Shown here one piece after another: positions 1-5,831 of a stretch of 46,170 nucleotides of DNA (position 1 is the first letter of the stretch; each line of letters begins with the position of its first letter). The position numbers and the translations under genes are program-made. This DNA is from Clostridia bacterium (GTDB taxonomy: Bacteria > Bacillota > Clostridia > Oscillospirales > RGIG8002). The notes beneath the pieces are model-generated. The model was not told where the DNA came from. It ran no database searches and saw nothing but the letters and a program-made list of their open reading frames with translations. The DNA lies in the NCBI GenBank assembly GCA_017438525.1, contig JAFRVI010000031.1:1-46170 (forward strand). The letters run 5' to 3'.

Positions 1-217
1 CAGATTTTGCCCCGTTCCGCGTTAAAATGCTCGGCAATACAGCAAGTATTGCCTTGCGCTTTTGCCTTGAACGGAAACAAAATCGGTCCGTTCAAAACTG
101 CTCCGCACCTGAAAGCGTGGCAAATCCGAGGGATTTGCGGCGCGGAGGACGACGGCGGGCTGGCGCCCGGCGAGGACAACAAGCCGGAAAGTTCCGGATT
201 TGACCGCTTCTCAGGCG
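1..217 (+). repeat. Structured repeat, copy 1 (5' end may be cut by window start)
   Basis: This roughly 215-bp non-coding element is homologous to the inverted copy at 642-867 and partly to 46093-46170. Landmarks in order: TTTTGCC (5-11); hairpin GGCAATAC/GTATTGCC (33-40/46-53, loop AGCAA); TTTTGCC (60-66); hairpin TTGAACGG/CCGTTCAA (67-74/88-95); hairpin GCAAATCC/GGATTTGC (120-127/131-138); a GC-rich hairpin near 153-171 bounded by GAGGAC direct repeats; and a terminal hairpin CCGGAA/TTCCGG (184-189/192-197) followed by TTTGA. GAACGG (69-74) could instead pair with CCGTTC (12-17). Several stems differ in sequence from the other copies but keep their pairing. The coding potential across it looks spurious. 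No function is known to me. Confidence 0.75.
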
Positions 218-253
218 TATTGTCCTTATCGTCGATCAGTCAAGTACAACAAA

Positions 254-281
254 CCAAGCGGCGCACGAATGTGCGCCGCTT
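254..281 (-). terminator. Probable rnpB terminator
   Basis: An 11-bp perfect stem (256-266 with 271-281, loop GAAT), read on the minus strand, lies about 30 nt beyond the predicted rnpB 3' end. It is followed by the T-rich GGTTTGTTGT, which is not a pure T-run. Confidence 0.6.
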
Positions 282-310: not shown

Positions 311-924
311 AGGTGAGCAAGTCTGTAAGCCGGGTTCTGTCCTTTAAGACTGCCATCTATCTGGGACGCGCGTCGCCGCGCGCCTCGCGCCACCCTTCAA
401 GGCACGGCGAGCAGCCGTATGGCCTTATTCGGTGTTGCATCGGATAGGGTTTACAGCGCCCCCGCGTTACCGAGGGGGCGGGTGAGCTCTTACCTCGCCT
501 TTCCACCCTTACCGGCAAAAGCCGGCGGTATATCTCTGTTGCACTTTCCCTGGAGTCGCCTCCGGCGGGCGTTACCCGCTATCCCGCTCTGCGATGCCCG
601 GACTTTCCTCATATACCGGGCGAGCGGCAGGGATCCGAATCCGCCTCAAACGGCGATATTTCGCCGCTTTTCAGCTTGTCGTCCTCGGCGGGCGCCGGCC
701 CGCCGTCGTCCTCTGCACCAAAAATCGGCTGAAATCTCATCCGTTTGAGGTCCGGAGGAGTTTTGCCGTAGCTGATTTGCGTCAGACTGCGGCAAAAGCG
801 CAAGGCAATACTGCTGTATTGCCGAGCATTTTAACAATAGTCTGGCGGAAAACAGCACGGCAAAACCGTGTTTCGGATTCCTGCCGCTCGCCCAGCGCAT
901 ACGCGGCAGCCCGACTTGCTCGGG
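311..924 (-). ncRNA. rnpB: RNase P RNA, type A, with an inserted element in the P3-region stem
   Basis: This is the catalytic RNA that matures tRNA 5' ends. On the minus strand it shows the conserved GAGGAAAGTCCGGGC block (P4 5' strand), GGAAAGTGCAACAGAGA, GGTAAGGGTGGAAAGG, GGTAAGAGCTCACC, and the 3' ACAGAACCCGGCTTA block, all in type A order. The ends pair as P1: GAGCAAGTC (minus, 921-913) with GACTTGCTC (minus, 323-315). The total of about 614 nt is well above the usual 350-400. The excess is about 230 nt lying between two arms of a 22-bp stem (618-639 with 872-893, one G-U wobble) at the expected position of P3. Removing it leaves about 380 nt. A 17-nt-spaced promoter ends just upstream of P1, which supports the 5' end. 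Ends are good to about 5 nt. Confidence 0.93.
642..867 (-). repeat. Structured repeat, copy 2, inside rnpB
   Basis: This is an inverted homologue of the element at 1-217, located between the two arms of the rnpB P3-region stem. On the minus strand it keeps the segment GTTAAAATGCTCGGCAATAC, a hairpin at 804-811/816-823, TTTTGCC, AAAACT, and the GAGGACGAC-bounded GC hairpin. Stems that differ in sequence but still pair: 783-788/839-844 (AGTCTG with CAGACT), 761-768/790-797 with inner 772-775/782-785, and 651-656/661-666 (CGGCGA with TCGCCG). The element is not flanked by recognisable target-site direct repeats. Confidence 0.8.
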
Positions 925-927
925 AGT

Positions 928-956
928 ATGATACCACGTTTTTGCCGAAAAGTAAA
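928..956 (-). promoter_or_regulatory. rnpB promoter
   Basis: Minus strand: -35 TTTACT (951-956), 17-nt spacer, -10 TATCAT (928-933). The predicted start is about 922-924, at the first base of P1. Confidence 0.75.
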
Positions 957-1077: not shown

Positions 1078-1743
1078 ATGACGGAAGACAACGAAAACGA
1101 AAGACCGCGCGATCCGTCCGGCGAGGACGGAGCCGTGACCGTGAAGGCGGGGACGCACTCGATCTGCTGCTTGACGGTGATCGGGCAGATAGAAGGGCAT
1201 TACGCCCTTCCGCCTACGGAGAAAGCGACGCGCTACGAGCATATGATCCCGCGGCTCGTCGCGGCGGAGCAGTCGCCGGAGGTCGAGGGCGTGCTGCTTC
1301 TGCTGAACACGGTAGGCGGCGATATCGAGGCGGGGCTCGCGATAGCGGAGCTCGTCGCGAGCATGAAGACGCCCTCCGTTTCGCTCGTGCTCGGCGGCAG
1401 CCATTCGATTGGCGTGCCGCTCGCGGTCTGTGCGCGCAGGTCATTCATCGTGCCTACGGCGACGATGACGGTGCATCCCGTGCGGCTTACCGGACTTGTG
1501 CTCGGCGTGCCGCAGACATTCGATTATTTCCAGAAGATGCAGGAGCGCGTTGTGCGCTTCGTCGCCGGCAACAGCCGGGTTTCGCCGGAGCGTATGCGCG
1601 AGCTGATGCTGAACACCGGCGAGCTCGCCACGGATATGGGCAGCGTGCTCGACGGCGAAGCCGCCGTCCGCGAGGGCTTCATCGACGCGGTGGGCGGTCT
1701 CGCCGACGCGGTGGAGGCGCTTTACCGGCTGATAGAGGAATAA
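1078..1743 (+). CDS. tepA: ClpP-family serine protease, TepA type
   Basis: This is a 221-residue ClpP/crotonase-fold protein resembling TepA (YmfB), a cytoplasmic ClpP-like peptidase that in Bacillus has been linked to protein export and spore protein turnover. The catalytic pattern is visible: Ser110 in GGSHSIG, His133 in MTVHPV, and a likely Asp at 186 or 192. The oxyanion-side segment NTVGGDIEAG (77-86) matches the ClpP GG(D/G) turn. There is no signal peptide. AAGGCGG lies about 10 nt before the ATG. The gene stands just upstream of uppP and ftsK; tepA next to a SpoIIIE/FtsK gene is a known Firmicutes arrangement. The substrate cannot be told from sequence. Confidence 0.85.
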   Translation: MTEDNENERPRDPSGEDGAVTVKAGTHSICCLTVIGQIEGHYALPPTEKATRYEHMIPRLVAAEQSPEVEGVLLLLNTVGGDIEAGLAIAELVASMKTPSVSLVLGGSHSIGVPLAVCARRSFIVPTATMTVHPVRLTGLVLGVPQTFDYFQKMQERVVRFVAGNSRVSPERMRELMLNTGELATDMGSVLDGEAAVREGFIDAVGGLADAVEALYRLIEE

Positions 1744-1810
1744 TCCGCGGCGGTCATATCATAGATATTACGGCGGCGGTCCGCCGCAGTACATATTCGG
1801 AGCAATCAAG

Positions 1811-2647
1811 ATGACGGTTTTTCAGGCGTTCTTTCAAGGAGTGATACAGGGGCTGACGGAGTTCCTTCCCGTCAGCAGCTCGTGGCATCTCTCGGTCGCC
1901 GCGCACTTTTTCGGCATCGAGGGGGCGGGAACAGCGTTTTCCGTTTTCCTGCATCTCGGCACGCTGGCGGCGGTCGTCTTCGCGTTTTTTCCGAGGGTCA
2001 AGGAGCTGTTCTTCGAGTTCTTCCGCATGATTGCGGATATTTTCCGCGGCAGGTTCAGCTTTAAGAACTGCGGTCAAACGCGAAGGATGCTGCTGATGAT
2101 GATCCTTTCGCTCGCGCCGCTGCTCTGCGTCTATCCGATAAAGGATACGATCTCCGCGCTCGGCGAGGACGAGGACGTCGTCGTCGAAGGGATATGCTTC
2201 ATCTACACCGCGATCCTGCTGCTTCTGGCAAGCTACACCGCGAAGCGCACCGCGGAGCCGCTCGCCGAAGTTACGCCGGGGCGCGCGGTCTACATAGGAT
2301 TCATGCAGGCGATAGCGCTGCTTCCGGGCGTTTCGCGCAGCGGCTCGACCGTCGGCGCGGGGCTGATCTCCGGAGTCGACCGCGGTTATATGGTCGACTA
2401 TTCCTTCATTTTGAGCATACCGGTCATATTCGCCGCCGGCGTAAGCGAAACGAAGGACGCCTTCGCGGAAGGCCTCGGCGTGGGAGTTTTCCCGCTCATC
2501 GTCGGAGTCGTAACCGCCGCGGCCGTCGGCTTTTTCGCGATAAAGGCGCTCTCGTGGATGGTGAAGAACGATAAGCTCTGGATATTCTCGATATACCTCT
2601 TCCTGCTCGGCGGCTTCACAGTCGTCGCGGGAATGAGCGGACTCTGA
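1811..2647 (+). CDS. uppP: Undecaprenyl-diphosphate phosphatase
   Basis: This 278-residue multi-pass membrane protein of the UppP/BacA family dephosphorylates undecaprenyl diphosphate to recycle the lipid carrier for peptidoglycan and other wall polymers. Two family signatures are clear: GLTEFLPVSSSWHL (residues 14-27), carrying the conserved Glu and Ser run, and PGVSRSGSTVGAGL in the second half, carrying the phosphate-binding SRSG. About seven hydrophobic segments can be counted, and the length is typical. It starts 67 nt after tepA with GGAG about 8 nt before the ATG, and ftsK follows closely, so the three may share a transcript. Confidence 0.93.
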   Translation: MTVFQAFFQGVIQGLTEFLPVSSSWHLSVAAHFFGIEGAGTAFSVFLHLGTLAAVVFAFFPRVKELFFEFFRMIADIFRGRFSFKNCGQTRRMLLMMILSLAPLLCVYPIKDTISALGEDEDVVVEGICFIYTAILLLLASYTAKRTAEPLAEVTPGRAVYIGFMQAIALLPGVSRSGSTVGAGLISGVDRGYMVDYSFILSIPVIFAAGVSETKDAFAEGLGVGVFPLIVGVVTAAAVGFFAIKALSWMVKNDKLWIFSIYLFLLGGFTVVAGMSGL

Positions 2648-2671
2648 TTATAAAGAACAGGATGTGTGAAA

Positions 2672-5032
2672 ATGGCGCAGAGAGGAAGGCCGAAGGGCTC
2701 GAAAAATAAAAACACCGCCGCAGCGGCGCGCTCGGCTGCCGCTGAAAAGCAGCGCAGCAAAAACGTAATATGGAGCACCGTGCTGATACTTGCCGGGCTG
2801 CTCCTGTTCGTGCTGCTCGTCGTTTCCGACAAGGGATTTCTCGGCGACGCGATCCAGAAGGGGATGAACACCCTTTTCTCGTGGGTAATGTACTTCCTGC
2901 CGGTGCTGCTGATCTATATCGGAGTGCTGCTCGCGGTGCAGAAGACGAAGAAATACATAGCCCTCCGTTTCTGGTTCAGTCTGCTTGCGATAATCATATT
3001 CGCGGCGGTCGTCTTCATTCTCAAGGCGGGGAGCAGGGATATAGTCGAGGTGTTCAAAGAAGACGGCGTCAACGCGGTCGGCTTCGGCATCGGCTTCGTT
3101 TTCACGAAGGCGCTTGGCAAGGTCGGCGGCCTTATAGCGCTGTTCCTCGTGCTCGCCGGCGCGCTTATGATGTCCGCGGGCATAACGATAATCAACGTTT
3201 TCAACTGGCTTAAAAACCTCTTCACGATGGGAGTTGACGAGGAGGACGGAGAAGAGCCGGAGACCGATCCCGTCAAGGCGATCGACAAGATCGGCAGGGA
3301 GCCGCAGCCGAAGCCGGAGAAGAAAAAGCGCTCCGCTATCGACATTCCGATACCGGACGGCCCGATAACCGTGCCGGATCTCACAGTCGCGGACCCCGCT
3401 CCGAAGCCGGAGATCCGCATCGACGACATAATCAACAAGGCGGCGGCGCCCGCCGCTTCGACCGAAGCGAAGCCAGCGCCCGTTACCGAAAGTCCGAAGC
3501 CCGCCGACAAGTACGCGGACAAGCCGGCGGAAAAACCCGCCGAAAAGCCCGCCGAGCCGAAGGAGGACGGCTACGTCTTCCCGCCGCTATCGCTGCTGAA
3601 AAAGGGCGTCGGCGGCGTATCCGAGGACGTCTCCAACGAGATGAAGGAAAACGCGGACAAGCTCGTGCGCACGCTGCGCTCCTTCGGCGTTTCCACGTCG
3701 ATAAGCGAAGTATGCCGCGGCCCGTCCGTCACGCGCTACGAGCTTCAGCCGGAGGCCGGCGTCAAGCTCAGCCGCATAACCGGACTTTCCGACGACCTCG
3801 CGCTTTCTCTCGCGGCGAGCAGCATACGCATCGAGGCGCCGATCCCGAACAAAGCGGCGGTCGGCATCGAGGTGCCGAACAAGACGCGCAGCAACGTGTT
3901 GCTTCGCGATCTGCTCGAAACCAAGGGGTTTGCGGACAGCCACAGCCGCCTGACGATAGCGATAGGCAAGGGCGTTTCGGGCGATCCGATAGTCGCCGAC
4001 CTCGCCTCCATGCCGCATATGCTTATCGCCGGCGCGACCGGCTCCGGTAAGTCCATCTGCGAAAACTGCATAATTATGAGCATAATATACAAGGCGAGCC
4101 CGGACGAGGTCAAGTTCATAATGATCGACCCGAAGGCCGTCGAGCTGACGATGTATAACGGTCTGCCGCATCTGGCGATCCCGGTCGTCACCGACCCGAA
4201 ACGCGCCGCCGGCGCGCTCGACTGGGCGGTGCGCGAAATGATGCGCCGCTACAAGCTGCTTTCGGAATCCGGCTGCCGCGACATCAAGAGCTACAACCTG
4301 CGCGTGAAGGACGACGAAAACGCCGAGCCGCTACCGCAGTACGTCATAGTCATCGACGAACTCGCGAACCTGATGATGACCTCCCCGAAGGAGGTCGAGG
4401 ACAGCATCTGCAAGCTCGCCCAGCTTGCCCGCGCCGCCGGAATGCACCTCGTTATCGCTACGCAGCGTCCGTCCGTCGACGTCATCACCGGACTTATCAA
4501 AGCGAACATCCCGACCCGCGTCGCGCTTTCGGTCACTTCGCAGGTCGACTCGCGCACGATAATCGACCACGCCGGCGCCGAGAAGCTGCTCGGCCGCGGC
4601 GATATGCTCTACGCGCCGATCGACGCGTCGAAGGCGCAGCGCGTTCAGGGCTGCTACGTTTCCGAAGACGAGGTGCGCAGCGTCGTCGAATTCACCAAGA
4701 AGAAGGCCGCCGCGCACTACGACGAGAGCATCAGCGAAGCCATTGACGCCTACTCCGCGAACCAGAAGGACAAGGGCGGAGCTTCCGGCGGAGTCGGCGA
4801 CGACGACGGCGAAGCGGACGAAATGCTCGAAGCCGCCATCGAGATCGCGGTCGAAACGCAGACGATCTCGACTTCGCTGCTCCAGCGCCGCCTCAAGCTC
4901 GGCTACGCGCGCGCCGCGCGTATCGTCGACGAGATGGAGGCGCGCGGCATCGTCGGGCCGTTCGAGGGCTCCAAGCCGCGCCAGGTGCTTCTGACGCGCG
5001 ATCAGTGGATGGAAATGAAAAACCGTCAGTAA
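2672..5032 (+). CDS. ftsK: DNA translocase FtsK/SpoIIIE
   Basis: This septal DNA pump clears chromosome from the division or sporulation septum. About four membrane segments lie in residues 30-180, followed by a long Pro/Lys/Ala-rich linker with KPAEKPAE repeats, the RecA-like motor, and a C-terminal gamma winged helix (about 715-786: TSLLQRRLKLGYARAARIVD). Walker A is GATGSGKS (about 454-461) and Walker B is YVIVIDELAN (about 555-564). A GTG at 2666 is an alternative start, but AGGA at 2658-2661 sits at a better distance from the ATG at 2672. Length is typical. Sequence alone does not separate a vegetative FtsK from SpoIIIE; the neighbouring M23 gene and tepA are compatible with either. A strong terminator follows at 5067. 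Confidence 0.95.
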   Translation: MAQRGRPKGSKNKNTAAAARSAAAEKQRSKNVIWSTVLILAGLLLFVLLVVSDKGFLGDAIQKGMNTLFSWVMYFLPVLLIYIGVLLAVQKTKKYIALRFWFSLLAIIIFAAVVFILKAGSRDIVEVFKEDGVNAVGFGIGFVFTKALGKVGGLIALFLVLAGALMMSAGITIINVFNWLKNLFTMGVDEEDGEEPETDPVKAIDKIGREPQPKPEKKKRSAIDIPIPDGPITVPDLTVADPAPKPEIRIDDIINKAAAPAASTEAKPAPVTESPKPADKYADKPAEKPAEKPAEPKEDGYVFPPLSLLKKGVGGVSEDVSNEMKENADKLVRTLRSFGVSTSISEVCRGPSVTRYELQPEAGVKLSRITGLSDDLALSLAASSIRIEAPIPNKAAVGIEVPNKTRSNVLLRDLLETKGFADSHSRLTIAIGKGVSGDPIVADLASMPHMLIAGATGSGKSICENCIIMSIIYKASPDEVKFIMIDPKAVELTMYNGLPHLAIPVVTDPKRAAGALDWAVREMMRRYKLLSESGCRDIKSYNLRVKDDENAEPLPQYVIVIDELANLMMTSPKEVEDSICKLAQLARAAGMHLVIATQRPSVDVITGLIKANIPTRVALSVTSQVDSRTIIDHAGAEKLLGRGDMLYAPIDASKAQRVQGCYVSEDEVRSVVEFTKKKAAAHYDESISEAIDAYSANQKDKGGASGGVGDDDGEADEMLEAAIEIAVETQTISTSLLQRRLKLGYARAARIVDEMEARGIVGPFEGSKPRQVLLTRDQWMEMKNRQ

Positions 5033-5066
5033 GATTTTTGCGTAATTATTCTTTCATAAAAACGGG

Positions 5067-5102
5067 TGCCTTTGAGCAAAATAAGCTCAAAGGCATCTTT
5101 TT
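5067..5102 (+). terminator. ftsK terminator
   Basis: An 11-bp perfect stem TGCCTTTGAGC/GCTCAAAGGCA (5067-5077 with 5085-5095) is followed by TCTTTTTT. It ends about 20 nt before the next gene's start. Confidence 0.88.
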
Positions 5103-5120
5103 TACGAAAGGATAGATATT

Positions 5121-5831
5121 ATGAAGGAATTGAAGCTTCCGAGCGAGAAGAAGAGCAAACTGCCGGGAGGCAAAAAGTTTTTCGCTGTGCTCGCGGCGTG
5201 CCTTATCGCCGTCTTCGTAGCCGGATATATCGCGATTGACAGAAGTTTGACCTACACGCGTCCGGTCGAGGAGCCGCCGGTCGAGAGTCAGACCGAGAAG
5301 GTCGACAAGCCGCAGAAGGGCGTGACCGAGAAGCCCGCGTCCGAGAGCGAGCCGGAGCCGTCAAGCTCCGAAAAGGAGGACGACGAGCCCGCGAACACCG
5401 TTCCGGAACCGACGCTGCTGATATGGCCGGTCAGCGGCGGAACGCTCATGCGCGAATACAGCGCGGACGCGCTCGTTTTTTCGCCCACGATGCAGGACTG
5501 GCGCACGCATAACGGAGTCGACATCGCCGCGCCGGTCGGCACGGCCGTCCGCGCCATGGCGGCGGGTGAGGTGACTGGCGTCCGCGAGGACGGGATGCTC
5601 GGCTGGGTGATCGAGATAAAGCACGGCAGCTACGCCGCCTCCTACTGCAACGTGCAGGAGGGCGTCGCCGTCAAGGTCGGCGACACGGTAGGCATCGGCG
5701 ACCAGATCGGCGGAGTAGGGCAGCAGGCGCGCCTTGAGATCGGCGATGAGCCGCACCTCCACCTCGAGGTACGCAAAAACGGCGAGCTGATAGACCCGCT
5801 CAGCGTGATGAACAACACGGATATTGAGTAA
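5121..5831 (+). CDS. Membrane-anchored M23 metallopeptidase (SpoIIQ-like)
   Basis: The 236 residues comprise a short basic N-terminus, one membrane anchor (about 20-38), a Glu/Pro/Ser-rich linker (about 45-95), and a LytM/M23 domain (about 97-230). The zinc-binding set looks intact: His130 and Asp134 in HNGVD, and His212 and His214 in HLHLE, so peptidoglycan endopeptidase activity is plausible. One anchor, an acidic linker and a LytM domain resemble SpoIIQ, the forespore partner of the sporulation channel, but no other sporulation gene is adjacent, so a vegetative wall role is equally possible. AAAGGA precedes the ATG. It is probably transcribed partly through the ftsK terminator or from an unseen promoter. 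Confidence 0.85.
   Translation: MKELKLPSEKKSKLPGGKKFFAVLAACLIAVFVAGYIAIDRSLTYTRPVEEPPVESQTEKVDKPQKGVTEKPASESEPEPSSSEKEDDEPANTVPEPTLLIWPVSGGTLMREYSADALVFSPTMQDWRTHNGVDIAAPVGTAVRAMAAGEVTGVREDGMLGWVIEIKHGSYAASYCNVQEGVAVKVGDTVGIGDQIGGVGQQARLEIGDEPHLHLEVRKNGELIDPLSVMNNTDIE

Follow-up and report, generated by a model that had tools for sequence, protein, structure and literature searches.

In 1997, Vioque is said to have described STRR repeats in cyanobacterial rnpB (cited in PMC2858038), where members of a genomic repeat family would likewise be located inside RNase P RNA; those are short tandem repeats, whereas the repeat considered here is a 277-nt palindromic element. Moreover, Rickettsia palindromic elements (RPE) have been reported within both tmRNA and M1 RNA, the product of rnpB (Ogata et al. 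2002, cited in PMC2229807), and thus, as far as the account of them in that source extends, the kind of insertion described here was already known. According to the same account, RPE are also dispersed, hairpin-forming palindromic repeats inside an RNase P RNA gene, but they belong to another phylum and measure 105-146 bp compared with 277 for our element, which is Y-shaped; also, the tmRNA of our host genome has no insert, being 350 nt long as in its relatives. This likeness to RPE is drawn from their description. The original prediction regarded a repeat in the loop of an essential RNA as unusual, which is a fair view, although RPE in M1 RNA and tmRNA, as outlined in PMC2229807, provide a precedent.

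The intervening sequence (IVS) of Coxiella 23S rRNA has a closing stem of 28 bp and is excised by RNase III, leaving a fragmented but working rRNA (PMC4990558). As in this case, the rnpB insert lies at the tip of a hairpin of an essential RNA and is closed by its own long terminal stem, formed by complementary ends. However, it resides in RNase P RNA, copies of the element are scattered over the genome, an S23p-type ORF was not noticed, and its excision is putative. Correia/NEMIS MITEs, in turn, have terminal inverted repeats (TIRs) of 24 bp, and their transcripts are proposed to be substrates of RNase III (PMC2229807). Our element resembles them in being small and non-autonomous, in its inverted ends, and in the stem-loops of its transcripts, several dispersed copies with TIRs being found in the host genome (G000) and in three genomes of the same genus (G001, G002, and G003). 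Nonetheless, it is longer and branched, full copies show no clear target-site duplication, their two flanks having no more than A or AA in common, and no partner transposase was found among the sites with its TIRs. Relative to the literature searched, the element family, the phylum, the comparison with a recent empty site, and the branched architecture are new.

A recent insertion in the P3 loop of rnpB

The window, that is, the whole stretch of 46,170 nucleotides that was analysed, is contig 31 of a 97% complete host genome of 1.85 Mb in 90 contigs, where rnpB (924-311, minus strand) is the sole copy found. Alignment with the three congeners supports the original prediction that rnpB is split on the minus strand by an inserted repeat and places this repeat in the P3 loop (Table 1). 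P1 pairing closes the molecule across the whole gene (921-913 with 323-315), the proposed promoter and terminator are both in place, and the gene is otherwise intact, its core showing no decay and being unchanged relative to the relatives. The Rfam type A model (RF00010), with which it had been proposed to fold the RNA, gives a match of 244.8 bits against a gathering score of 100; however, the hit covers 648-310 on the minus strand and places the 5' strands of P1-P3 on the insert. The true 5' part of rnpB, including the P1 strand, is 924-894, as set by the congener alignment. This represents an annotation pitfall, where the Rfam coordinates miss the true 5' end of the gene. Adjoining rnpB (window 1078-5831) are genes for a ClpP-like protease, an undecaprenyl-diphosphatase (UppP), an FtsK-type translocase, and an M23/SpoIIQ-like peptidase, with all the scores of these assignments below the curated cut-offs.

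Table 1. Features of the interrupted rnpB locus and of the repeat element in the window.
Feature	Position	Strand	Basis or remark
rnpB promoter (TTTACT - 17 nt - TATCAT)	928..956	-	aligned region conserved in three relatives
RNase P RNA 5' end: P1 5' strand 921-913, P2 5' strand, P3 5' strand 903-897	894..924	-	alignment to G001-G003 and fold
Inserted palindromic element, 276 nt, P3 loop	618..893	-	absent from G001, G002, G003
Terminal stem of the element (22 bp), left arm, at the TIR position	872..893	-	
Arm 1 of the Y-shaped element	760..867	-	consensus fold, where compensatory pairs occur
Arm 2 of the Y, bearing the conserved GAGGACGACGGCGGGC/GCCCGCCGAGGAC module	646..750	-	consensus fold; module common to other repeats of the genus
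Terminal stem of the element (22 bp), right arm	618..639	-	
Remaining RNase P RNA: P3 3' strand 616-610, P4, catalytic core, specificity domain, P1 3' strand 323-315	311..617	-	RF00010; near-identical to relatives
rnpB intrinsic terminator	256..281	-	hairpin present in relatives too
Second family copy, 95% to consensus copies	1..241	+	left end cut by contig end; right TIR 220-241

In G001, G002, and G003, the close relatives whose alignment had been proposed as a check, rnpB is uninterrupted, with 333-334 nt, and P3 is a short hairpin of 7-8 bp. Therefore, the 22-bp stem, which had been taken as the P3 of rnpB, is the TIR of the element, and the inserted unit comprises not 226 but 276 nt, stem included. 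Removal of the insert in silico leaves 338 nt, seven of which are extra ends counted in, and restores a P3 of 7 bp with a 4-nt loop. This insert-free rnpB is 96-97% identical to those of G002 and G003, the differences with G002 being mostly in P3 and the P12 loop. Moreover, G002 is 97.6% identical to the window upstream of the insert (894-2422) and 98% within the gene (314-612), only the insert being missing. Since G002 is about 98% identical on either side and yet lacks the insert, the insertion must be recent, and it is most simply dated after the split from G002, on the window's own lineage. Two rnpB loci of the same genus recovered by a pattern search come from rumen Clostridia MAGs, from goat and water buffalo.

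The copy, its boundaries, its absence from the relatives, and the intact gene around it are all read directly from the sequences. With a probability of about 85%, we consider that an element of ~277 nt was inserted whole into the P3 loop of the single rnpB, recently and in this lineage only, with RNase P staying active.

Family relations of the insert

The insert is a full-length member of a dispersed family of palindromic elements of ~277 nt with the TIR GACTGATYGGCGRTAAGGACAA, present in all four genomes of the genus, and from TIR to TIR it covers 276 nt in rnpB against 277 nt in the family. Its inverted repeat (618-639/872-893) has 22 bp and is 95% complementary. A second copy, originally placed at 1-217, is real, matching the insert with 77% identity over 171 nt (21-191, plus strand), but extends further (Table 1); it sits just past the rnpB terminator, and the corresponding stretch of G002 has no match to it. 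Other family copies match the insert at E ~1e-31, and its folding energy corresponds to z = -12 against dinucleotide shuffles, which together exclude chance. The 22-bp TIRs occur at 12 sites in the host genome, where they were seen only as element ends or short remnants; besides such TIR remnants, this genome holds three complete copies and three that a contig end cuts short, among them window 1-241, and G001, G002, and G003 also hold complete or nearly complete copies. On the other hand, 16 other genomes sampled from the order gave only two weak short matches (24-39 nt), and the element matches no Rfam family. We thus regard it as a non-autonomous, MITE-like element dispersed in a rumen-type Clostridia genus.

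The copy in rnpB is not identical to the others. Its interior is 75-78% identical to family copies, and its terminal stem has the position and length of the family but a different sequence (GGGCGAGCGGCAGGAATCCGAA). Because its 3' part and terminal sequence recur in two partial elements (G001:C94 and G000:C23:49280), it belongs to a sister subfamily. No close donor was found, the best matches to the rnpB copy being ~78% identical and its TIR sequence type appearing only in partial copies. These differences bear on whether the assembler could have joined a dispersed repeat into rnpB, as might be feared in a 90-contig draft where three contigs, the window included, break off within family copies (window 1, G000:C23:75408, and G000:C18:10680), the element thus fragmenting the assembly. 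However, the terminal sequence of the insert recurs, with up to three mismatches, only in the short element C23:49297, and the longest exact match of the insert to any compared copy is 33 nt. Also, the assembly broke at copies that are 95% alike but passed through this 78% copy, and the two flanks are complementary and meet precisely in the P3 loop, so that an artefact appears highly improbable.

The consensus fold of the family is a Y, composed of a basal stem, arm 1, and arm 2, where 30 of 105 consensus pairs show compensatory change. For the terminal stem, a comparison of 10 copies reveals 13 pairs with changes on both sides, a number as high being reached in 0 of 500 shuffles and slid registers failing. 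Compared with one family copy, the basal stem is Watson-Crick at 21 of 22 positions, and both partners differ in 11 pairs. The hairpin module GAGGACGACGGCGGGC...GCCCGCCGAGGAC, sometimes in a variant form, is also enclosed by several distinct outer stems across the genus (L097, L008, L102, and others), whose repeats look as if built from exchangeable nested hairpins. In addition, the orthologous copies L088 (G000:C26:21404) and L072 (G002:C20:69011) carry different internal deletions between their inverted ends.

This strong structure with compensatory changes could suggest that the insert is a selected functional domain, such as an RNase P arm that binds a protein or has a regulatory role. Nonetheless, the insertion being recent, the changes reflect the history of the family and not evolution within rnpB. 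Selection inside rnpB was rejected as their source, given that the insertion is younger than the ~2% divergence of its flanks from insert-free G002 and the changes predate it. Moreover, three relatives manage without the insert, and we therefore give this possibility very little weight. Compensatory changes could also arise if one arm of an inverted repeat served as template for the correction of the other.

Consequences for the RNase P RNA

The tip of P3 lies away from the RNase P active site. In the C-domain, P2 and P3 stack coaxially (PMC4919922). The fold predicted for the 614-nt RNA keeps 102 of the 104 pairs of the insert-free fold and has no pairs between insert and body, and the pair probabilities of the basal stem are near 1 except at its single mismatch. 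Since its ends pair over 22 bp, the element would be stacked on P3 in the transcript as a self-contained, Y-shaped arm directed away from the catalytic core, while the RNase P body would fold as before and the enzyme would stay active. We infer that RNase P function would be retained because rnpB is single, intact, and promoter-bearing.

A further event may follow, similar to that of rRNA intervening sequences, in which RNase III would cut the 22-bp stem, the element would be discarded, and the mature enzyme would work with a two-piece RNA joined by P1 and P2. The near-perfect 22-bp helix runs on from P3 and is a plausible RNase III substrate, and the functional fragmented 23S rRNA of Coxiella arises by RNase III excision at a 28-bp TIR stem (PMC4990558). 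We regard this processing as a serious possibility, at somewhat less than even odds; it adds to the explanation based on a whole, recent insertion instead of excluding it.

It had also been suggested that the element favors hairpin tips. However, most of the other full-length copies are intergenic and have no hairpin beside them, and the sequences bordering the insertion sites lack complementarity, so hairpin-tip targeting was rejected. In this case, the location at the P3 tip is best explained by survival, given that insertions anywhere else in rnpB would probably be lethal.

Other rnpB expansions in the order

A search across the order gave an rnpB match in 364 of 394 genomes, a survey that could miss some P3 inserts, since these may mislead the model as in the present case. 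In G368 (family f20; L134), rnpB has 640 nt, with ~269 nt in P12 (about 1728-1996) bounded by imperfect inverted ends. This P12 insert is unrelated to the P3 element. Portions of it are repeated, with 70-92% identity, at four further sites of the same genome, whereas a search of seven other genomes, including five from family f20, did not find it. This repeat supports, as a second case, that insertions are tolerated at helix tips.

Large P12 expansions of rnpB are also observed in families f6 (L045, L046, and L047) and f3 (L048). The rnpB of f6 carries a 125-nt unit in one or two tandem copies that is found nowhere else in the genome. These long genes were considered and rejected as parallel cases, their P12 inserts not being dispersed, with one further match of ~35 nt in each of two f3 genomes. 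Likewise, the long P12 regions of G008, G031, G049, and G047 are not dispersed. Such expansions (G008, G031, and G047) could suggest that the insert in P3 arose in the same way, as an ordinary growth of a variable helix by local duplication known from other type A RNAs. Nonetheless, unlike them, the insert belongs to a dispersed repeat family, and the chance of a local origin is close to negligible.

Finally, the locus provides a precisely bounded, recent insertion of a mobile element in an essential ribozyme encoded by one gene copy, and a sister species offers the almost identical empty site for comparison; it is a well-resolved new case and not a new kind of thing. It also represents a natural experiment on how far the P3 arm can grow and be tolerated and on whether RNase P RNA can work if cut there. 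If RNase III cleavage followed the insertion, this organism may have a naturally split, two-piece bacterial RNase P, and, together with the P12 repeat of G368, the peripheral helix tips of rnpB could repeatedly receive structured mobile elements in the order, although this wider proposal is a tentative one.
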